Notes under the pieces: model-generated | Seen by the model: the letters and a program-made list of their open reading frames with translations, nothing else | Told to the model about the DNA's origin: nothing | Database searches by the model: none | Origin: Bacteroidota bacterium | GTDB taxonomy: Bacteria; Bacteroidota; Bacteroidia; Chitinophagales; Chitinophagaceae | Direction: 5' to 3' | DNA length: 32,113 nucleotides | Assembly (NCBI GenBank): GCA_029561255.1 | Contig: JAKQJH010000177.1 | Location: 1-32,113 of the forward strand | Program-made: the position numbers and the translations under genes | Shown: piece by piece, positions 4,862-32,113 of the stretch | Layout: each line of letters begins with the position of its first letter | How positions within the stretch are numbered: position 1 is the first letter of the stretch

Positions 4862-7800
4862 GTTTCACCAGTTTAAAGCTCCTCCTCTTCTCTCCCACTC
4901 CTGTTTCCAGCAAATAAATTCCCGCCGGGTAGGCCGGGCCTTTCAGGTCAATGTTCAGTTTTTGGGCAAAGCCGCTGGCCGGGTTGCTGTGCTGGTAAAC
5001 GAGGCGGCCCTTTGTATCATAGACTTTCACCTGGATCGTTTCACCCGGACTGGCCTGGCAGTTGAGGCTGAACTGGCCGGCGGATGGATTGGGTGTAACG
5101 GTCCATTGAATTTCAATATTGAATACCAGCGGGCGGATCGCTGAGTAGCGCACCGTTCCGTCATTATCGATTATTTTCAACCGGTAATAGCGTACCCCTG
5201 ATTTTCCGGGCTCTGTGTCCAGATACTGGTAGCGTTGTTCCCGGTCTGAATTACCCTGGCTCAGTATTTCACCCAAACGTGTATAACGGCCCGACTGGTA
5301 ATCGGCATTGCCACGGGCCACTTCAATCTCAAACCGGTTTACATTGTATTCCGAAGCAGTCACCCATTCAGCCAGTACATCATCCTGGGGCAGTTTACGA
5401 ACAGTAAACTGCTTCAACTCAACAGGCAAAGGCTGACTGCCTGTAAGTCCGCCGGTATTGAGCCAGAACTCGGAAAAATTATTGACTTTAAACTCAGCAT
5501 AATAGCCTTTATCGAAAGGTACTTTGGTGGCCCGGGACGGGATAACAAAAGACCAGACACCCTGGTTATTATCCGCAATAGTTCCGTTTTCATAACTATT
5601 ATCCGGGTCACTATACTTAGTTACCCCGAGATCATAAACCGTAGCCGGTTTGGCACAACCACTGCAACCTGTAGCCGCAATCAGGGTTTCTGTTTCGGTA
5701 TCCGGGAAATACACCCGCACCAACACCGAATCACCCAGTGCCAGGAACGCGTTGGCAGGCTGAATGGTAAAGTTGCGGTTATGATAATACTGGTTACTGC
5801 TCCAGCGTACCGCACCGGTATGCAGATAGGCTCTAACATCAGTAGCTCCCATTTCCTGTCCGGCCGGATGAACCGAAGCCACCAGTTTACCTCCTTCCAG
5901 GAAATCCACCCAGGTATTGGTACCGGTATTGATGGTCTGTGTTACCGGGGCTGCCATGGTTGCACCATCATATAAACCGTACAGGTTATCGTAAATATGA
6001 ATATCATCCACCGCTATCCCGTCTTTATTCAGCCCTGAGTCGGAATTAAACACAAATCGAAAACGGAGCCGGCTGTTATTGCTGGTGGGTAAAGCCGTTG
6101 TGGCTACATGCCAGTTGGTATAATTTTGCTGGCTCCATAACTGATTTCCCGCATAGTTTTTATTGTACCAATTCGTTCCTTGTCCAAAGCTGCCCAGTTT
6201 TGTCCAGGTAATTCCATCTTCAGAATATTCCACCCAGGCGGCATCACAAAGGACCGCGCCGCAATCTTCGATGTCCATGGCCACGCTGAAACTGAGGGTA
6301 GGATTGGTCATGGTTGAAATATCAAAGCAGGGCGAATAGAGATAAGAAAATTCATTGTCATTATAGTAGCCGGCGATCCTTGTCTTCCAGGCCTTGCTGC
6401 CACTGGCAGCCCGGTTGATCTTCGGAGAGATCGGCGTACCATATTCCCAGGAGGATAAGATGCCTCCGGTATACCAGGAACCATTATTGGTTTCAAAATT
6501 CTGCAGGTAAGGGAAGCTGCTGACCAGGGGCAGATTATTCACCGTGCTGCTGACCGTGTCATTCTGATTATAGGTATCCGTTGCCAGGGCCGACCATACC
6601 TCTATAATATGATTACCACTGGTGGTAAGATTGGCCGTTGCGGTAAACGTGTACTGAACCGATGAGCTGGCTGCAATGGAAGTAATCGTTTCATTGGCGA
6701 TGACCACTCCATCCACTTTCAGCGTGATGGGAATATTATTGATGATGGCATTCGACGTATTCCGTACCGTTACTTTTACCGGCACCGCTGCACTGAGTCC
6801 GCAACTTACCGTATAAGGCGTATCCACACTGACCAGTTGGATATCATCAACCGCTTTATAAAGACGGATATCATCAAACGTATATCCTGCCGCCCTGAAA
6901 TTATCAGCCGCCAGATACTCGCCCCATTGTCCCCAACGAACTTGTGTGCTGGTACTGAAGGATTGTCCATAAGCGGCCAGTGAATCACTTAATTCAATAC
7001 TGCCGGAGAGTTTAAAGGAACCATCCGCAGCTGGCTGATTGGCATACAGGTCATAGACCGCTATCCAGTTGTCTGTATCATTACCCCGTATCCATACTTT
7101 ATTGGCGGCATTGGATTTTTGCCCGTGATTTTTATACCGGAAATCGATCCTTATATCATCCGTTGCCGTATTGAAGGTGGCCAGGTTAAAGGTACCGGTG
7201 AGTGAATCAACACTTCCGCCGGATACAAAACGACTCTGATCAAGCGTCAGTGCTTTGGAACCGGAATAAGCAATGCCGGTATGGATAAATGTTTTCGCCT
7301 GACCATATATTCCATTGTTGACAAAGTCATACCGGTCATTGCCGGTCAGTCCCATCTGGTCCACCGTGATCGTTTGTTCTGCCGCGGTTTCCATATCGTC
7401 GAGCCAGGGAAGCAGGGCATTATTAATGGCGGCATTGGCGAGTTGCTTAAACACTTTCGTCTGTGTATTATTCGCCGTCACCGGATCCGAGGCTTTGGTG
7501 GCGATGACCTCAATACTATAGGTTCCGGTGGCTCCCAAATTGGCGGTGGTGGCGAATGTATGCGAAAGCGTTCCTCCGGCTGCAATATCCGCTATGGGAG
7601 TTGTGATTACTTCATTGACAGCCGGTCCGCCATTGATGGAATAACTCACATTGATATTACCAGATGAAATGGCATCATCAAGGTTTTTAATCCGTATGGT
7701 AACCGCATGAGTGGCGCTCAGGGCGGTGCTGGTCAGTTCACGTCCGGAAGTGGCGGGGGAAACAATCGCATCCAGTTTCAGGTCGTTATCCGAAATAGTT

Positions 7801-25402: not shown

Positions 25403-28165
25403 ATGGCAACAAAAACAAAAACCGGAAAGTATGTGTACTTCTTCGGCGGCGGCAAGGCCGATGGAAACGAATCAATGAAAAACTTGCTGGGCGGCAAAGG
25501 GGCAAACCTCGCCGAAATGGCAGGACACCCGAACCTTAAATTACCGGTTCCCCCGGGATTTACCGTAACCACAGAGGTTTGTACTTACTACTATGCGAAT
25601 AAAAGAACCTATCCCAAATCCCTGAACGCACAGGTAAAAGAATCCATGGAAAGAATGGAAAAGATCACCGGTAAAAAATTCGGTGATGAAAAAAATCCAT
25701 TATTGTTATCCGTTCGCTCCGGTGCCCGTAAGAGTATGCCCGGCATGATGGAAACCGTATTGAATGTAGGTCTCAACGAAAATACCATAAAAGGCGTGAT
25801 TGCCCAGAGTGGTGATGCCCGTTTTGCCTATGACGCTTACCGTCGCCTGATCATGATGTATGCCGATGTGGTGATGGAAAAAGCCGCCGGTATCGAACCC
25901 AAAGGAGGTAAAGGCATTCGTAAAGTGCTGGATGAAAAACTGGAGCATGTTAAAAAGACGAGAGGATATGCCAGCGATACGGACCTTACTGCTGAAGAAC
26001 TGAAAGAACTCGTTAAAGATTATAAGAAAACCGTTAAGAAAGTACTGGGCACTGAATTCCCTGATGATCCCTGGGAACAAATGTGGGGTGGTGTGGGTGC
26101 CGTATTTGCCAGCTGGAATGGTAAACGTGCCATTGAATACCGTCGTATTGAAAAAATACCACACGAATGGGGAACGGCGGTTAACGTACAGGCCATGGTA
26201 TTCGGTAATATGGGCGAAGGATGCTGCACCGGTGTGGCATTTACCCGTAACCCCGGTAATGGCGAAAACCATTTTTATGGAGAATACCTGATAAATGCGC
26301 AGGGTGAGGATGTGGTGGCCGGTATCCGGACTCCTTCTCCTGTCAATGACTACTCAAAGAATGCACAGAGTGAACATTTCTCCACCCTTGAAGAACTGAT
26401 GCCTGCTCAATACAAAGAGCTATATACCATTCAGCGCAGACTGGAAAAGCACTATCATGATATGCAGGACATTGAGTTTACCATTGAAAAAGGAAAACTC
26501 TATATGCTGCAATGCCGCGTTGGTAAACGGAACGGTGTCGCTGCGGTTCGTATGGCCACTGAAATGGTCAAAGAAAGACTGATTGATGCCAAAACAGCAT
26601 TGATGCGTGTGGGCCCGAATCAGCTGGTTGAATTACTCCTGCCAATGCTGGATCCTAAAGCAGAATTACTGGCTCCTGTTATTGCCAAAGGTCTTCCTGC
26701 CGGTCCTGGTGGTGCCAAAGGCCGCGTGGTCTTCTCTTCTGCTGAAGCAGTAGAATGGGCCTCCAAAGGGGAGAAAGTAATCCTCGTTCGTGAAGAAACT
26801 TCCCCCGAAGATGTGGATGGTATGCATAAAGCACAAGCGATCCTTACCACTAAAGGTGGTATGACGTCTCACGCAGCGCTCGTAGCCCGCGGCTGGGGTA
26901 AATGCTGTATAGTAGGTTGTGGCGATATTGAAATCCATGCGGAAGCCAAAAACTTCCATGCAAAGAATGGTGTGGTGATCAAAGAAGGTGACTGGATCAG
27001 TCTGAATGGTACTAAAGGTGCCGTTTATGAAGGCAGTATGGCCCTGGTGGACATTGATATCGACAAGAACCAGTCCTACAAAGACCTGATGAAACTGGTG
27101 GATAAATTCAAACAGATCGGCGTACGTGCCAATGCAGAGACCCCGCTGGATGCTGTAAACGCCGTTAAATTCGGTGCAGAAGGTATCGGTCTCTTCCGTA
27201 CAGAACACATGTTCTATGGCGAAGGAAGCGAAGAACCCCTGTTCCAACTACGTAAAATGATCGTTAGCAAAACAGAAAAAGAAAGAAGAGAAGCGCTGAA
27301 CGGCCTGTTCAAGTTTGTGAAGAAAGACGTGAAGAATACCCTTTCCGTAATGAAAGGTCATCCCGTAACCATCCGTCTGCTCGACCCACCATTACATGAG
27401 TTTGTTCCCCATGATAAAGAAAAACTCCGCCAGCTGAGCAAAGAACTCGGTATCAGTATGGGTATGCTGAACAGACGTGTACTCGCTTTGCATGAAAATA
27501 ACCCGATGCTGGGTCACCGTGGTGTACGTCTCGGTATCAGTTATCCGGAGATCACAGAGATGCAGGTACGCGCTATTTTCGAAGCAACTGCCGAATTACT
27601 GAAAGCAGGTAAGAAAGCTTTCCCTGAGATCATGGTTCCTGTTACAGTGATTGCTCATGAGCTACGTCACCAGAAAGTGATCGTGGATCAGGTATACAAG
27701 GAAGTATGTGAGAAATTCAAGATGAAGAAGATCCCCTACCTCTATGGTACGATGATCGAAACGCCGCGTGCTGCATTACGGGCTGAATTCATGGCCAATG
27801 TAGCCGACTTCTTCAGCTTTGGTACCAATGACCTCACCCAGATGAGCTTTGGTTTCAGCCGCGATGATATTGGTGGTTTCTTACCAAAATACCTTGACCT
27901 GAAGATCCTTCCCGATGATCCGTTCCAGACCATCGACCAGGAAGGTATCGGCCAGCTGATCAAAGTAGGTACAGAAAGAGGCCGGGTGACCAAACCCAAC
28001 CTCAAAGTAGGTATCTGCGGCGAGCATGGCGGCGATCCCGAAAGCGTGAAATTCTGTCACCGTATCGGTATGAACTATGTAAGCTGTTCTCCGTTCCGTG
28101 TACCAATTGCCCGCCTGGCTGCGGCACAGGCTGCGATTGAAACACCGAGAAAGCAGAAGAAGTAA
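25403..28165 (+). CDS. ppdK: Pyruvate, phosphate dikinase
   Basis: A 920-residue enzyme that interconverts pyruvate, ATP and phosphate with PEP, AMP and pyrophosphate. The ATP-grasp domain has LLGGKGANLAEMA (28-40) and SVRSGARKSMPGMMETVLN (103-121). The swivelling phospho-histidine domain has KGGMTSHAALVARG with His490. The PEP/pyruvate barrel has GIGLFRTEHMFY (594-605), FGTNDLTQMSFGFSRDD (806-822) and Cys873 in GICGEHGGDP, the likely acid/base. Length and order match PPDK, not PEP synthase. It lies alone between the nuo terminator and a hairpin terminator at 28281. A REP-like array begins 2 bp after its stop. Confidence 0.97.
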   Translation: MATKTKTGKYVYFFGGGKADGNESMKNLLGGKGANLAEMAGHPNLKLPVPPGFTVTTEVCTYYYANKRTYPKSLNAQVKESMERMEKITGKKFGDEKNPLLLSVRSGARKSMPGMMETVLNVGLNENTIKGVIAQSGDARFAYDAYRRLIMMYADVVMEKAAGIEPKGGKGIRKVLDEKLEHVKKTRGYASDTDLTAEELKELVKDYKKTVKKVLGTEFPDDPWEQMWGGVGAVFASWNGKRAIEYRRIEKIPHEWGTAVNVQAMVFGNMGEGCCTGVAFTRNPGNGENHFYGEYLINAQGEDVVAGIRTPSPVNDYSKNAQSEHFSTLEELMPAQYKELYTIQRRLEKHYHDMQDIEFTIEKGKLYMLQCRVGKRNGVAAVRMATEMVKERLIDAKTALMRVGPNQLVELLLPMLDPKAELLAPVIAKGLPAGPGGAKGRVVFSSAEAVEWASKGEKVILVREETSPEDVDGMHKAQAILTTKGGMTSHAALVARGWGKCCIVGCGDIEIHAEAKNFHAKNGVVIKEGDWISLNGTKGAVYEGSMALVDIDIDKNQSYKDLMKLVDKFKQIGVRANAETPLDAVNAVKFGAEGIGLFRTEHMFYGEGSEEPLFQLRKMIVSKTEKERREALNGLFKFVKKDVKNTLSVMKGHPVTIRLLDPPLHEFVPHDKEKLRQLSKELGISMGMLNRRVLALHENNPMLGHRGVRLGISYPEITEMQVRAIFEATAELLKAGKKAFPEIMVPVTVIAHELRHQKVIVDQVYKEVCEKFKMKKIPYLYGTMIETPRAALRAEFMANVADFFSFGTNDLTQMSFGFSRDDIGGFLPKYLDLKILPDDPFQTIDQEGIGQLIKVGTERGRVTKPNLKVGICGEHGGDPESVKFCHRIGMNYVSCSPFRVPIARLAAAQAAIETPRKQKK

Positions 28166-28166
28166 G

Positions 28167-28248
28167 CTTGTTGGTGATAACACCAACAAGATGCAGCAGC
28201 TGGTGATAACACCAACAAGATGCAGCAGCTGGTGATAACACCAACAAG
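28167..28248. repeat. REP-like array A: three 29-bp units with GTTGGTG palindrome
   Basis: Copy 1 (28167-28190) is a perfect palindrome with 10-bp arms CTTGTTGGTG and CACCAACAAG around ATAA. Copies 2 (28200-28219) and 3 (28229-28248) have the same core, but the left outer arm is replaced by CAGC and is no longer fully complementary. The spacer is ATGCAGCAG each time, and the period is exactly 29 bp. The array starts one base after the ppdK stop and lies in its 3' untranslated region, before the terminator. Confidence 0.9.
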
Positions 28249-28280
28249 ATGCAGTTTTCTCACTCACTATAATCCGATAG

Positions 28281-28314
28281 AAACCCTCTCAAGTCTTTGA
28301 GAGGGTTTCGTTTT
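28281..28314 (+). terminator. Intrinsic terminator of ppdK
   Basis: AAACCCTCTCAA (28281-28292) and TTGAGAGGGTTT (28297-28308) form a 12-bp stem with loop GTCT, followed by CGTTTT. The T-rich tail is also the left arm of the next REP-like palindrome. Confidence 0.82.
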
Positions 28315-28338
28315 GTTGGTGTTATCACCAACAAAACG
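28309..28338. repeat. REP-like palindrome with 13-bp arms
   Basis: Arms CGTTTTGTTGGTG (28309-28321) and CACCAACAAAACG (28326-28338) are exact complements around TTAT. The core is the same as in array A, but the loop is the complement (TTAT against ATAA) and the outer arm is different. Confidence 0.85.
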
Positions 28339-28339
28339 G

Positions 28340-28358
28340 TTGGTGATATAACCAGCAA
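28340..28358. repeat. Degenerate REP-like copy
   Basis: TTGGTGATATAACCAGCAA resembles the core with several changes in the right arm. It follows the perfect palindrome at 28309-28338 directly. Confidence 0.5.
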
Positions 28359-28377
28359 TCACACCTATAAGCGCTGG

Positions 28378-28401
28378 ATCGTTGGTGAGAACACCAACGA
28401 T
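28378..28401. repeat. REP-like palindrome with arms ATCGTTGGTG / CACCAACGAT
   Basis: A perfect 10-bp stem with loop AGAA (28388-28391). A further degenerate half copy, with CCAA (28439-28442) and TTGG (28447-28450), lies 40 bp downstream. These elements fill most of the 375 bp between ppdK and the transposase gene; nothing else coding was found there. Confidence 0.82.
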
Positions 28402-28540
28402 ATACATCCTGTCTCCGGTGCATTTATTACTAAAAACACCAATCAGTTGGCTTTTTTTGAACATCCGTATGAGGGAATTTTCACTTCCCGTCTACGTCTT
28501 TTTCCCATACAGCCTCCAATTCCGGAATTTACCTTACGGC

Positions 28541-29059
28541 ATGTCAGTATTAAAACCCGAATGCCCTCAGTTCTTCACTGCAACAAATCTTTGGTGGAAA
28601 CCACTTCTAAAAGATGATGCGCATAAAGAAATAGTAATCAGCAGCCTCCGGTATTTGGTGGAGAAAAGACGAATCAGCATGCACGCCTTTGTCCTGATGT
28701 CCAATCATATCCACCTGATCTGGAAAATAAAACCGGATCACCGGCCGGAAAATGTACAGCGTGATTTCCTGAAATTTACCGGGCAACAGATTAAATTTTC
28801 TATGCAAAAAACCAATCCCGGATTTCTTGAGTTATTCAGGGTAGACAGTAAAGACCGTAAATATCAGTTATGGGAAAGAAATCCATACAGTCAGGCATTA
28901 TGGACAGCTCCTGTTTACCTGCAAAAACTTCAGTATATACATGATAATCCTGTAAAAAAAGGGTTTTGCAAGGATCCGGAAGACTACCACTATTCTTCTG
29001 CCCTTTTTTATGAAACAGGGAAAGACAATTGGGGATTTCTCGAAAAATATGACATTTAA
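28541..29059 (+). CDS. REP-associated tyrosine transposase (RAYT, HUH/Y1 superfamily)
   Basis: A 172-residue single-strand DNA transposase of the IS200/IS605-like Y1 superfamily. The HUH motif is His56-Ile-His58 in MSNHIHLIW, and the probable nucleophile is Tyr132 in LQYIHDNPVKKGF; the C-terminal YSSALFY block is also typical. The N-terminus FFTATNLWWKPLL with EIVISSLRYL fits a Bacteroidota RAYT subgroup known to me from memory. RAYTs recognise and cleave small hairpins (REPs) and occur as single-copy, domesticated-looking genes. ATG 28541 fits the family start; the frame runs open upstream to 28382 but that part overlaps REP copies and lacks family features. It is intact, with no IS ends or target duplication seen. 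Palindromes with a common core flank it on both sides. Confidence 0.87.
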   Translation: MSVLKPECPQFFTATNLWWKPLLKDDAHKEIVISSLRYLVEKRRISMHAFVLMSNHIHLIWKIKPDHRPENVQRDFLKFTGQQIKFSMQKTNPGFLELFRVDSKDRKYQLWERNPYSQALWTAPVYLQKLQYIHDNPVKKGFCKDPEDYHYSSALFYETGKDNWGFLEKYDI

Positions 29060-29110
29060 TTACAAATCTTCCGGGTACATTCAGCTTTACCTGCTCTTCA
29101 TATTATCAAA

Positions 29111-29130
29111 TATCCCCTGAAACAGGGATA
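29111..29130. repeat. Small inverted repeat downstream of the transposase gene
   Basis: TATCCC (29111-29116) and GGGATA (29125-29130) pair, with CTG and CAG allowing an extended stem. It lies in the 121-bp gap before the next gene and differs from the GTTGGTG family. Confidence 0.4.
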
Positions 29131-29180
29131 CTCCGGGTAATCTTCATCTCTTAGTTTTACTTCCTACTAAAAAACCGGCG

Positions 29181-30017
29181 ATGAAAAAGTCAATTCAATT
29201 CTGTCTTTCCCTTTTATTGCTTTCAGTATTTAACGTATCAGTGTTTGCGCAAAAGACAACCACTTATGCACAATCAACCACCCAGTTGCAACTGGAAAAA
29301 AACAATATTCAGGTGGAAAATCTCAGCTTCACTGATGCGCTGGGGCCTGAAAATCAACTCCAGCACACAGCCAGCTTTGACTTTTTTCTATCCGATGATG
29401 CGGCCACTCAGAATATTCTCAGGATACTCCAGGTCTATACAAAAGAACAGGCGAGCCGGCAGTTGAATTTTGTCACGCTTAACTATGCTGGTGATCCTTT
29501 ACAGGAAAGATTTTACGACAATGCGGTGGTAGAAGAAATCCTCTTTAATGCACTGGATGCTACATCCAAGGCCCCTTTTAAAGCGACGGTAAAAATCAGA
29601 GCGGGTTCAGTTAAAATACAAAAAGGCGGTACCAGGCCTGACCTGGCCCCCAGGAATAAACGGCGGGCCTTAACTGCCAACTTCAGTATAACACTAGGAA
29701 ATCTGCCAACAACCCGGGTGGCTAAAATAAGTGGATTGGGTATTAAGCCGGGTGACGGATCCTACATTAATTTAACCATTGAAGTAATGGCTATTGATGG
29801 CGCTGCCTGGAATCAATGGTTTCTTACAGGAGCAGCTGGGCTCAGAAAAGAAAAGGGCAACATCCATCTATTGGCACCAGACCTGAAGGGAGTATTGTAT
29901 AGTTTTTCATTATATGATGTTGAGATAGTCTCTTATACAGGAGGATCATCTGGCAACCAGCAGACTATCAGCCGGGCTACAATCGGGTTAAGGCTGAAGG
30001 GATTGGCGGTGAAGTGA
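29181..30017 (+). CDS. Secreted hypothetical protein (278 residues)
   Basis: It has a clear signal peptide (MKKSIQFCLSLLLLSVF, cleavage likely after VFA) and then about 255 residues of mainly beta-type sequence. There are no cysteines in the mature part and no recognised catalytic motif. A basic segment occurs near residues 150-167 (RPDLAPRNKRR). The last 45 residues (YSFSLYDVEIVSYTGG, then SRATIGLRLKGLAV) look like strands. It is probably periplasmic or surface exposed. A weak -7-like TAGTTTTA lies at 29152-29159. It lies between the RAYT gene and REP array B, which begins 3 bp after its stop. I do not recognise a family; function unknown. Confidence 0.75.
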   Translation: MKKSIQFCLSLLLLSVFNVSVFAQKTTTYAQSTTQLQLEKNNIQVENLSFTDALGPENQLQHTASFDFFLSDDAATQNILRILQVYTKEQASRQLNFVTLNYAGDPLQERFYDNAVVEEILFNALDATSKAPFKATVKIRAGSVKIQKGGTRPDLAPRNKRRALTANFSITLGNLPTTRVAKISGLGIKPGDGSYINLTIEVMAIDGAAWNQWFLTGAAGLRKEKGNIHLLAPDLKGVLYSFSLYDVEIVSYTGGSSGNQQTISRATIGLRLKGLAVK

Positions 30018-30019
30018 TA

Positions 30020-30099
30020 CTTGTTGGTGATAACACCAAACTACTGACTTGTTGGTGATAACACCAAACTATTGACTTGTTGGTGATAACACCAACAAG
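30020..30099. repeat. REP-like array B: three 28-bp units
   Basis: Three copies with exactly 28-bp spacing. Copies 1 and 2 have left arm CTTGTTGGTG but right side CACCAAACT, so the outer arm does not pair. Copy 3 (30076-30099) is the full perfect palindrome, identical to copy 1 of array A. Spacers are CTACTGA and CTATTGA. The array fills the gap between two converging genes almost exactly. Confidence 0.9.
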
Positions 30100-30101
30100 A
30101 C

Positions 30102-30680
30102 TCAACCTGCGGCCAGGAAACGGATGCCGGGCATCGGCATAAAATAGTTCGGAAGACAGGTGAGAGACCCGTCTTCTTCGATGGTAAAATCAATCCCTTT
30201 AAAACTAACCTGCTCCAGCGAAGGGTTAAGCGATAGCTCAAAATGATTATTCTTGTTATCAGGACTTTTCACTAAAGTAACAATATCAGGAAACAAAAGA
30301 TGTTGTACATAAATGCTGTCACAATGCGCAATATCCAGCTGTATACATCCCTCACTATCAGTGACTGCTTCCTCCCGGTTGTCGCCCATCAGGACAAAGC
30401 AACGGATATTTTGTACCAGCATTGAATTGGTGTCTGTGAAAACCAGGTGATATCCATCTCCCTGACGAAACTCCTTATTCACTGTAAAATCCTTCCCGGG
30501 TTCCTTTCCGCTTTTAAGTTTAACCAGGTTTCCTTCCACTGAAAATGTGCCGGTTGCATTGCGGTCTACCGCCCCGTACGAGAAAAAAAACTGAAACTTC
30601 CCGTCCTCTGAAAATTTAAAGCCGGCGACCATTTCTGTTTGGCGGAAATAATATTCTCCCAGTATAATTTGTTTTTCCAA
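30102..30680 (-). CDS. Hypothetical protein (192 residues)
   Basis: A 192-residue protein with no signal peptide and mainly beta-like sequence. The N-terminal section (ILGEYYFRQTEMVAGFKFSE, then DGKFQFFFSYGAVDRNATGT) reads like a small barrel or lipocalin-like strand pattern. The C-terminal section SLEQVSFKGIDFTIEEDGSL is also distinctive. I have seen similar uncharacterised Bacteroidota proteins but cannot name a function. It is 12 bp downstream of the beta-barrel gene on the same strand, so they are probably one operon. Its stop lies 2 bp from REP array B. Confidence 0.7.
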   Translation of the reverse strand: MEKQIILGEYYFRQTEMVAGFKFSEDGKFQFFFSYGAVDRNATGTFSVEGNLVKLKSGKEPGKDFTVNKEFRQGDGYHLVFTDTNSMLVQNIRCFVLMGDNREEAVTDSEGCIQLDIAHCDSIYVQHLLFPDIVTLVKSPDNKNNHFELSLNPSLEQVSFKGIDFTIEEDGSLTCLPNYFMPMPGIRFLAAG

Positions 30681-30692
30681 AGTCCTTCAGAT

Positions 30693-31427
30693 TTATTTTC
30701 TAATAGAAAAATACAACCCGGTGTTCAGGCCGGCCGTCCAGAGTTTCTCAGCCACAGGTGTATCAGCTGAGTTTAACAAACCATACCGCAAGACAGGTTC
30801 CGCCATCAATTTAAGGCGGCCATTTAACCGGTATCGTAGCCCCATACCAAGTTGGACCGAGAGATTCACTTCCCGTATATCATCCTGCAGTTTCGTATTA
30901 TCTCTCTTCACCTCTCCAGACCCATAATAGTTGTATGTCACCTGACCTTGGTTCAATAATAGGTTAATTACCATCCCTCCGCTGGGTGCCATCTGTAATT
31001 TTTTTCCACCCCACAGGTAAACCACGCGAAGCGGAATATCTAAGAATTGTTTTCTGTAAACATGCTTTACAGCAACAGGATCGCCAGGTGAAACCGGAGG
31101 AATGTAAACAAGCAATTGCTTATGTGTCTTATAGCCTTTCGCTGAATAAAACAACCCGGATTCGATCTGTAAACGGGAAGAAATATTCCATCCAAAACTT
31201 ACACCTGTTGTAAAACCAAGTCTTGCCTTTTCCATCCGGTCTCTTGACCTGATTATTGTTTGGGACACAGACTGACCGTCATTATTAACCAACCGACGGT
31301 AACTATAGTCGGGAGAAAAGTGCAATCCGACAAAAAAAGGTTGCTGTTCTTTTTTACTGATTATTTCCTGCGCAGATAAAGTATGGAATATTAAAAAGAG
31401 GATTATAAGGAAGGAAGTGCGCATCAT
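30693..31427 (-). CDS. PorT-family outer-membrane beta-barrel protein
   Basis: A 244-residue protein with a signal peptide (MMRTSFLIILFLIFHTLSAQ) and then alternating strands typical of a small outer-membrane barrel. Examples are FTTGVSFGWNISSRLQIESG, LFYSAKGYKT, VNLSVQLGMGLRYRL and a final LNTGLYFSIRK. The pattern of G-aromatic strand ends and KTHKQLLVYIPPV-like loops fits the OMP_b-brl_2 (PorT-like) group common in Bacteroidota. Either of two ATGs (31427 or 31424) could start it. A perfect -7 box lies upstream at 31444-31451. Transport or receptor role unknown. Confidence 0.8.
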   Translation of the reverse strand: MMRTSFLIILFLIFHTLSAQEIISKKEQQPFFVGLHFSPDYSYRRLVNNDGQSVSQTIIRSRDRMEKARLGFTTGVSFGWNISSRLQIESGLFYSAKGYKTHKQLLVYIPPVSPGDPVAVKHVYRKQFLDIPLRVVYLWGGKKLQMAPSGGMVINLLLNQGQVTYNYYGSGEVKRDNTKLQDDIREVNLSVQLGMGLRYRLNGRLKLMAEPVLRYGLLNSADTPVAEKLWTAGLNTGLYFSIRK

Positions 31428-31443
31428 AGATAAAAGGTGTACT

Positions 31444-31451
31444 CAAATATA
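31444..31451 (-). promoter_or_regulatory. Bacteroidota -7 box (TATATTTG) for the beta-barrel gene
   Basis: On the minus strand TATATTTG matches TAnnTTTG exactly and ends 16 bp before the ATG. The -33 zone would fall inside the REP-like palindrome at 31463-31488, with no TTTG visible there. Confidence 0.5.
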
Positions 31452-31462
31452 AATAAATATTT

Positions 31463-31530
31463 TCATGTTGGTGATAACACCAACATGACTCACACCAACA
31501 TGACTCACACCAACATGACTCACACCAACA
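31463..31530. repeat. REP-like array C: one full palindrome plus tandem half arms
   Basis: A full copy has arms TCATGTTGGTG (31463-31473) and CACCAACATGA (31478-31488) around ATAA. It is followed by repeats of the right arm alone: the 15-bp unit CACCAACATGACTCA occurs at 31478, 31493 and 31508, with a partial at 31523-31530. Confidence 0.88.
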
Positions 31531-31534
31531 ATAG

Positions 31535-31565
31535 AACAGCCTGCCCCTTCCGGCGGCAGGCTGTT
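31535..31565. terminator. Hairpin downstream of the hydrogenase protease gene
   Basis: AACAGCCTGCC (31535-31545) and GGCAGGCTGTT (31555-31565) form an 11-bp stem. On the minus strand it lies 29 bp after the protease stop, but the sequence beyond it is only moderately T-rich, so termination is likely but not certain. Confidence 0.5.
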
Positions 31566-31594
31566 TGCTTTGCTTGCTACTAATGCTTATGCTA

Positions 31595-32077
31595 TCAACT
31601 CGTTACTGCAGTATTGGCCGGAGCCAGTTGGATCGCCAGCCCGGTGACAAGATTCAATAGTTCAGGCATGGCTGCTTCTACCTCATCGGTCATTTCAACG
31701 CCTTGTTGCTGGATATACTCAATGCTTACCACAAACAGGTGCATCTCTGGTATCTGGCCCAATAGCTGTAATGAATTGACCATATCCCGTAACCCGATAT
31801 CGTGTGTGCTCATGGATTTGGGGAAATCGGCTGCAAACTTTGGTTTGATCAGCCGGATAGTACCTGCTTTTTGTCCATCCAGGGTGGCATCCACGAGGAT
31901 AACCTGCCGGTATTTTTCAAAATACTCCAGCAGGTGAAAACCACCGGTGCCGCCATCCACCACATCCACGTAATCCGGTAAGCCCGCAGACATGAGTTTT
32001 TGTGCCGCATGCACCCCTACTCCCTCATCGCCCATCAGGTAATTCCCGACGCCCATAATCAGCACTCTGTCTTCCAT
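31595..32077 (-). CDS. [NiFe]-hydrogenase maturation endopeptidase (HyaD/HybD family)
   Basis: A 160-residue protease that cuts the C-terminal tail of the hydrogenase large subunit after nickel insertion. The family motif MGVGNYLMGDEGVGVHA (8-24) holds Glu18. DGGTGG (41-46), Asp63 in LVDAT and His92 in STHDIGLRD supply the other nickel-sensing ligands (Glu16, Asp62 and His93 in E. coli HybD). Length is normal. It is on the minus strand, 3 bp after the end of another gene at the window edge, so it belongs to an operon that extends beyond the window. The organism therefore probably has a [NiFe] hydrogenase. Confidence 0.92.
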   Translation of the reverse strand: MEDRVLIMGVGNYLMGDEGVGVHAAQKLMSAGLPDYVDVVDGGTGGFHLLEYFEKYRQVILVDATLDGQKAGTIRLIKPKFAADFPKSMSTHDIGLRDMVNSLQLLGQIPEMHLFVVSIEYIQQQGVEMTDEVEAAMPELLNLVTGLAIQLAPANTAVTS

Positions 32078-32080
32078 GAT

Positions 32081-32113
32081 CTATGATTTAGTTGGTTCAT
32101 TCGGCACATCCAG
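32081..32113 (-). CDS. 3' end of an upstream gene (last 10 codons)
   Basis: Reading the minus strand from the window edge, one frame gives LDVPNEPTKS and then TAG at 32083-32081. The stop is 3 bp before the protease ATG, a spacing typical of operon partners. In hydrogenase operons the gene before the protease is often a structural or cytochrome subunit, but ten residues do not identify it. Confidence 0.35.
   Translation of the reverse strand: MDVPNEPTKS

Follow-up and report, generated by a model that had tools for sequence, protein, structure and literature searches.

A RAYT gene and its probable REP hairpin family in a genome of the Chitinophagaceae

We analysed a stretch of 32,113 nucleotides (the window) from a Bacteroidota bacterium of the family Chitinophagaceae (contig JAKQJH010000177.1, assembly GCA_029561255.1), which carries a gene for a REP-associated tyrosine transposase (RAYT) and a family of hairpins with the core arms GTTGGTG and CACCAAC. 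We consider it very probable that the two make up a REPtron of the kind formed by Bacteroidota-type RAYTs (subclass 2.6, or group 5), in other words a low-copy gene for an HUH/Y1 nuclease together with the repetitive extragenic palindromes (REPs) on which this nuclease would act. To judge from the sequences, the reading frame is open and holds the catalytic motifs, the hairpins are mostly intergenic, matching and mostly inverted hairpins stand beside related RAYTs, the arms and the foot (the tetranucleotide adjoining the stem) follow the RAYT lineage, and a conserved signal is found on one side of the hairpin only. Cleavage, a guide role of the foot and mobility are what we infer beyond this. 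The kind of system is already known; the variant is resolved here better than in the print consulted, and its one-sided foot tetranucleotide is added.

The RAYT gene and its product

The first-pass annotation had described a 172-residue HUH/Y1 transposase of the RAYT type, and it was right: the gene is an intact open reading frame (ORF) of 172 aa, whose product has the catalytic histidines of the HUH motif, His56 and His58, and Tyr132. Both histidines, Tyr132 and Trp111 are invariant among 29 aligned sequences. With 85 bits the protein passes the cut-off of NCBIfam REP_Tyr_transpos (80), while it falls slightly under that of Pfam Y1_Tnp (21.3 for 23) and far under that of NCBIfam transpos_IS200 (20.6 bits for 55); a search of PHROGs gave no match. 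A sequence profile matches 4er8, the TnpA-REP of E. coli (E 3e-6), and the structure predicted for the window RAYT (pLDDT 94.5) has the same entry, which includes a REP hairpin, as its top fold match in the PDB (E 2.9e-8, TM 0.66/0.69). Compared with the signature of subclass 2.6 printed in Table 1 of PMC6006769, NHIH and YSSA fit; YIHDNP and WK/WE deviate.

The window is one of the contigs of a genome bin of 3.63 Mb, 76% complete. This bin holds one close RAYT, one paralogue at 32% identity and one weak match of 28 residues. This paralogue, a second and distant RAYT (L154 / L017, G000 contig C191), has unrelated G+C-rich hairpins of the GCGAGGCG type on both sides.

The hairpins of the window and of the genome

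Five exact occurrences of GTTGGTG-N0-12-CACCAAC are found in the window, all with 4-nt loops, where 0.01 are expected and where none of 100 shuffles reaches five. When positions 27500-32113 were searched at an identity of at least 72% over 20 nt, ten REP copies were obtained (Table 1), in agreement with the at least nine full or near-full palindromes reported earlier. That none occurs elsewhere in the window is correct for the palindrome but not for its halves: the half arm GTTGGTG occurs 20 times in the window against 4.7 expected, 18 times within 28170-31529 and twice alone, at 5718 and 20876. The picture of a RAYT surrounded by palindromes also has to be corrected in part. The copies form three separate arrays and not a single block about the gene, at 28167-28401 (between ppdK and the RAYT gene), 30023-30099 (between convergent ORFs) and 31464-31529; the nearest copy 3' of the gene starts 964 bp beyond its end, and within 900 bp of the gene copies lie on the upstream side only.

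Five copies folded as single-stranded DNA give hairpins of 10 to 13 bp, with z-scores from -4.7 to -7.3 over six foldings. In two arrays the copies recur every 29 nt or 28 nt, and the third ends in three half-arm repeats of 15 nt; later slippage or unequal recombination is a more likely source of these tandem arrays than separate insertions. Since the part of the first array lying in 28167-28309 sits between the stop codon of ppdK and a terminator-like hairpin, it may be transcribed within the 3' end of ppdK.

Table 1. Coordinates of the RAYT gene, the REP copies and associated features in the window
Feature	Position	Strand	Remarks
REP copy 1	28167..28190		10-bp stem, loop ATAA; starts one base past where the ppdK stop codon ends (28165); 3' flank ATGC
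REP copy 2	28199..28216		one arm mismatch; 29-nt tandem with copy 1
REP copy 3	28228..28245		one arm mismatch; 29-nt tandem
Terminator-like hairpin	28280..28309	+	13-bp stem, 3' of ppdK; outside the REP family
REP copy 4	28309..28338		13-bp stem; loop TTAT, in the opposite orientation to copy 1
REP copy 5	28339..28356		degenerate
REP copy 6	28378..28401		loop AGAA; closest to the RAYT start (~140 bp)
RAYT (TnpA-REP-like) gene	28541..29059	+	from ATG to stop codon; ORF, profile, fold; HUH 28703-28714 (Asn-His-Ile-His); Tyr132 28934-28936
REP copy 7	30023..30040		3' arm incomplete; starts the 28-nt tandem array between convergent ORFs
REP copy 8	30051..30068		3' arm incomplete; 28-nt tandem
REP copy 9	30076..30099		exact; 28-nt tandem; 3' flank ACTC
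REP copy 10	31464..31487		exact; 3' flank ACTC
Three half arms (CACCAAC)	31493..31529		form a 15-nt tandem together with copy 10's 3' arm

Between the RAYT gene and the next REP array, positions 29181-30017 encode a protein of 278 aa with a signal-peptide-like start, which has no match in Pfam or NCBIfam. Many relatives have a REP directly at the place where the window carries this gene.

The whole-genome search that the first-pass annotation had proposed shows that the palindrome is not confined to the window: GTTGGTG-N4-CACCAAC has 28 exact copies on 12 contigs, five of them in the window, and these occur in both orientations and with different flanks. The shorter TTGGTGN3-6CACCAA has 30 copies, seven of them in the window. 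The reversed-pattern control gives 0 in both cases. The 30 copies make up 15 clusters, of which 12 overlap no ORF of at least 80 aa (ORFs being called by length alone). Of the remaining three, one reaches into the upstream extension of the RAYT frame and no other ORF, and two overlap other ORFs; the copies are therefore mostly between genes. In six of the 15 clusters a copy lies at most 10 nt from a stop codon. TTTT just past the core, on either strand, is seen in 0 of the 30 copies, and Rfam gives no match above the gathering score, two matches far under it being dismissed as chance. The canonical REP foot, 5' GT[AG]G, is missing from the hairpins of this genome.

Hairpins beside related RAYTs

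A scan of named genomes retained 80 loci from at least 463 relatives, in Chitinophagaceae, Cytophagales, Sphingobacteriales, Saprospiraceae, other Bacteroidota, a Lutibacter and two Ignavibacteria records. Together with 30 loci from the genomes of the family and 41 regions (L154 included), they form a set of 151. Removing nine same-contig duplicates left 142 loci for the comparison of both sides; removing eight left 143 for the foot counts, L178 being kept although its protein equals that of L109. L156 and L157, whose proteins are identical, are both in the set. Hairpins were selected for perfect pairing, with a stem of at least 8 bp and a loop of 3-7 nt, in flanks of 300 nt.

Such hairpins are present in 140/202 flanks of close RAYTs, against 40/334 stretches taken 0.7-1.0 or 2.0-2.3 kb away. 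Both sides bear one in 74 of the 142 loci, and in 66 of these 74 the two sides match each other; when sides are shuffled between loci, the mean is 31 and the maximum 41, and 2 kb off there are 0/55 matches. Judged by their loops, the two hairpins of the 66 matching loci are inverted in 49 cases, direct in 9 and unclear in 8. This means that RAYTs of this subgroup mostly stand next to variants of the window hairpin and not, as would have spoken against the proposed pairing, next to unrelated repeats. The distant paralogue group (21 loci at 31-36% identity, one of them in the window's own genome) differs: other hairpins were found there, or none.

Hairpins with the same arms, long loops (~10-45 nt) and mostly a GGC foot were noted at L021, L026, L027, L048, L049, L052, L066 and L081, and loop length seems to be free in this RAYT group.

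The foot of the hairpin

On the strand with the purine loop, the tetranucleotide directly after the 10-nt 3' arm is GGCG or GGCA in most close loci; on the opposite strand this is 5'-YGCC before the hairpin, the place that GTAG has in known REPs. With loops of up to 60 nt admitted, GGC stands next to the stem in 77/104 close and 10/18 intermediate loci, in 2/21 distant paralogues and in 4/60 controls of the close group. Among the 104 close loci, the control trinucleotides CCG and GCC are found 7 and 15 times. CGG and GCG (61/104 and 56/104) cannot serve as controls because both overlap GGCG.

We also counted feet over whole genomes, choosing copies without reference to the foot itself; the only conditions were a base other than G at position 18 and a purine as the first base of the loop. 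The foot is GGAG in 33/35 copies of G099 and GGCG in 18/21 copies of G225; in G159, GGCG (24/31, loops of at least 4 nt) is found alongside TAGG (8/15, loop of 3 nt); in G158, GG is fixed while the third and fourth bases are free. The reversed-pattern control gives 0 in G099 and 0 in G158. At the RAYT itself, the hairpin of the G099 species likewise has GGAG (L101, L182). G159 thus has two REP families which share the core TTGGTG and differ in loop and foot; six RAYT matches of this genome are among those listed.

On the RAYT tree 35 changes of foot class are counted, where shuffling gives 58.8 (200 shuffles, minimum 51); for the arm classes the figures are 51 and 70.5 (minimum 67). This is a quick tree in which 59 of the 135 inner branches are weak, and from which L061, L099 and L119, with two or more stops, were left out. 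As the sequences have it, the foot is mostly 5'-YGCC and is swapped in some lineages (CTCC, CCTA, GCCT) together with the RAYT.

The genome of the window has a foot of its own. Position 14 is C in 23/30 copies (p ~1e-7 after 24 positions are allowed for) and in 21/27 after near-repeats were collapsed by hand (p 3e-7 or less), and position 11 is A or T in 25/30; on the other side of the same 30 copies there is no comparable fixed base. Hence the foot is non-random, WNNC on one side only, that is, 5'-GNNW on the opposite strand.

The alignment column which best tells the foot register is residue 116 (column 115 of A1). It is Leu in 59/62 RAYTs with C at position 13 and in 3/11 with C at position 14 (Fisher 1.8e-6, with the window assigned manually to register 14, 28 loci of ambiguous register excluded and kinship uncorrected). 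Residue 116 is Tyr, Phe or His in six relatives with an AGGC foot, which have C at 14, and Tyr in the window RAYT; three loci with C at 14 retain Leu. The sequences thus suggest a tie between Tyr116 and the shifted foot register of the window RAYT. It stays a lead, since the register changes only five times on the RAYT tree and an independent-pairs test has too few pairs for significance. Arginine at residue 121, aligned with R104 of E. coli, was also considered as a cause of the different foot and was rejected: several RAYTs with a GGC foot lack this arginine too.

Co-occurrence and turnover across genomes

The loose pattern TTGGTGN3-6CACCAA matches 202 of the 244 family genomes, and its reversed control often gives 1-3 hits. 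As it is a poor measure, we used a tagged pattern, the foot-tagged TTGGTG hairpin, counting hairpin sides; the presence of a RAYT in a genome was read among the matches listed. Among genomes whose best RAYT match reaches E <= 1e-45, 16/31 have at least three tagged sides, and among the others 18/213 (p 4e-8), so that the palindrome is not equally common where no such transposase is seen. With the limit at E <= 1e-30 the counts are 18/59 and 16/185 (p 1e-4), and among genomes with no RAYT at E <= 1e-10 they are 5/104. The p-values are too good because the species are related. In G155, the only genus mate sampled (2.0 Mb), there is no RAYT at E <= 1e-10 among the matches listed and no tagged side, and there are three loose TTGGTG palindromes.

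Two genomes of one genus, G066 and G207, have a RAYT at the same place, with DNA ~99% identical while the flanking genes are ~90% identical, and their REP content differs. A second orthologous site carries, in G066, a single TTGGTG-type hairpin next to one of the GGTC type and, in G207, two TTGGTG-type hairpins along with ~430 more bases. From these orthologous sites it appears that REP copies were gained or lost between the species, although neither site provides a clean empty site with boundaries and the second bears another hairpin family. In G066 (L038) the REP-RAYT-REP cassette has the end of the upstream ABC-transporter gene, with its terminator, repeated on either side; in G207 (L037) the repeat covers a shorter part. 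Both loci look, in sequence, like a recent transfer or conversion with target duplication.

Weighing the interpretations

Several observations weigh against a working REPtron in this genome. Of the genome's 30 copies, 5 show the usual GGCR foot on the foot side and 1 shows it on the opposite side; in the window no copy does, so that the match of the RAYT to its own hairpins rests on the weaker WNNC signal. Directly downstream, the window RAYT has no hairpin of the family beside it and, the bin being 76% complete, a second close RAYT may lie elsewhere in the genome of the species. Among relatives, the two sides mismatch in 8/74 loci, and 27/135 loci have no short-loop hairpin within 300 nt. Of these 27, 18 have CCAAC-N2-3-GG[CG] on the outward strand (against 1/24 control sides) and nine do not; by eye, many of the 18 have loops of ~10-45 nt. 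The reversed-pattern control of the genome-wide foot counts has 5 matches in G225 and 1 in G159. Across the family, fewer than three tagged sides are counted in 41 of the 59 genomes whose RAYT passes E <= 1e-30 (some have other arms), and 16 genomes with at least three have no RAYT at this limit. Among these 16, which carry orphan hairpin families, are G112 and G183, incomplete genomes and genus mates of the RAYT-bearing G013, and G082, which shares its genus with G159; some of the cases would be accounted for if the RAYT had been lost or the bin is incomplete.

The scarcity of the usual foot, the degenerate and half copies of the window and the empty downstream side of the gene are also what would be expected if the pairing had once been active and the RAYT were now mismatched to its own hairpins, the copies being decaying relics. 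We regard this as unlikely, given that the RAYT frame and its catalytic residues are intact, that the arms are exact in 28 copies and that the foot is non-random, with WNNC on one side only. The RAYT also departs from the GGC class at Tyr116, the best residue for the foot register, which is a lead only. A far less probable explanation is that the palindromes are regulatory or RNA hairpins, such as terminators or the operator sites of a regulator, which came to lie near a RAYT by chance: their good folding, the clusters close to stop codons and the genomes carrying such hairpins without a close RAYT would suit it, but hairpins that match are much commoner beside related RAYTs than in distant control stretches, arms and foot follow the RAYT tree, and neither the TTTT count nor Rfam points that way. 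Ordinary tandem slippage that started from a single ancestral palindrome, without any transposase, could account for the 29-, 28- and 15-nt tandems of the window and hardly deserves credit for the whole, as slippage neither disperses exact copies over 12 contigs in both orientations and with different flanks nor places matching hairpins beside RAYTs.

We thus favour the REPtron, and the proposal of the first-pass annotation that the palindromes are the probable REP family of this RAYT has withstood both comparisons which could have overturned it, with relatives lacking the gene and with the repeats beside related RAYTs. In such a system the RAYT would bind the folded REP where the strand is single, for example on the lagging-strand template. 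Contact would be made through the arms and the 5' foot tetranucleotide (5'-YGCC in most relatives, 5'-GNNW in the genome of the window). Tyr132 would then form a 5'-phosphotyrosine link at a nearby dinucleotide selected by pairing with the foot, and cutting and rejoining would spread or reshuffle REPs into intergenic sites.

More tentatively, the Bacteroidota RAYTs may be naturally re-programmed single-strand nucleases, each lineage having its foot (YGCC, CTCC, CCTA, GCCT, GNNW) and its own reading segment right after the conserved Trp-Glu-Arg (residues 111-121 in the window RAYT), the foot being both read by the protein and setting the cleavage dinucleotide. Having Tyr116 in place of the usual Leu, and a foot in which the fixed C is displaced by one base, the window RAYT would represent another such switch in its own right. 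We think this possible, on balance doubtful. If it is true, the pairing rule given for Marinomonas in the portion of PMC8266576 used here predicts cleavage between G and G or G and C for YGCC, and between G and G or G and A for CTCC.

This touches the question of how a RAYT chooses its REP and why REPs differ between lineages. The clade offers ~100 RAYTs, many with readable matching hairpins, and its natural changes in arm, loop and foot make a recognition rule directly testable by swaps of foot and protein. A repeat family of Bacteroidota also gains a likely origin.

Comparison with known systems

The palindrome had been thought undescribed in Bacteroidota. The kind is known: the consulted part of PMC6006769 places TnpA-REP subclass 2.6 mostly in Bacteroidetes, flanked by 'atypical' REPs without GT[AG]G that have copies elsewhere in the genome. 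The palindrome itself and the YGCC foot were in no report found by a search of titles and abstract starts, Table S1 of PMC6006769 being outside its scope. In the parts consulted of the other papers, PMC3733652 treats GTAG and CGTC repeats, and PMC8040213 describes palindromic RNA candidates in Bacteroidetes of the human microbiome, without RAYTs. For GTAG REPs, the sections of PMC8266576 at hand state that the foot helps to choose the cleavage site in one system; the pairing rule is shown there for Marinomonas, and the biochemistry uses REPs of the GTAG type.

With subclass 2.6 (group 5 RAYTs), as far as the same part of PMC6006769 describes it, our system shares the host phylum, the NHxH and C-terminal SS motifs, a similar length (median 179 there, 172 aa here) and hairpins that lack GT[AG]G, stand beside the gene and recur elsewhere in the genome. 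It differs in that the window has YIHDNP for their YIH[QN]NP, and in that no foot is given there, whereas here a one-sided foot and a lineage-linked change of arm and foot are seen. With the canonical REPtrons of groups 2 and 3 (E. coli, Stenotrophomonas, Marinomonas), as presented in those sections of PMC8266576, it has in common the 4er8 fold, a hairpin with a 5'-foot tetranucleotide, inverted copies next to the gene and dispersal, and the concentration near the gene is as in Marinomonas; on the other hand the phylum is different, the foot is not GTAG, and the stems are perfect, with loops of mostly 3-5 nt, ~10-45 nt in some relatives. The class 3 TnpA-Y1 of Planctomycetes and Acidobacteria (PMC6006769, same part) likewise have a non-GTAG foot tetranucleotide, CnGA, but belong to another protein class, with another Y motif and in other phyla. 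Finally, the IS200/IS605 insertion sequences (IS608, ISDra2) share the HUH/Y1 fold and subterminal hairpins and, as that part of PMC6006769 also relates, a guide tetranucleotide 5' of the hairpin; they are multicopy elements, whereas here one close gene copy in the bin is accompanied by dispersed short repeats.

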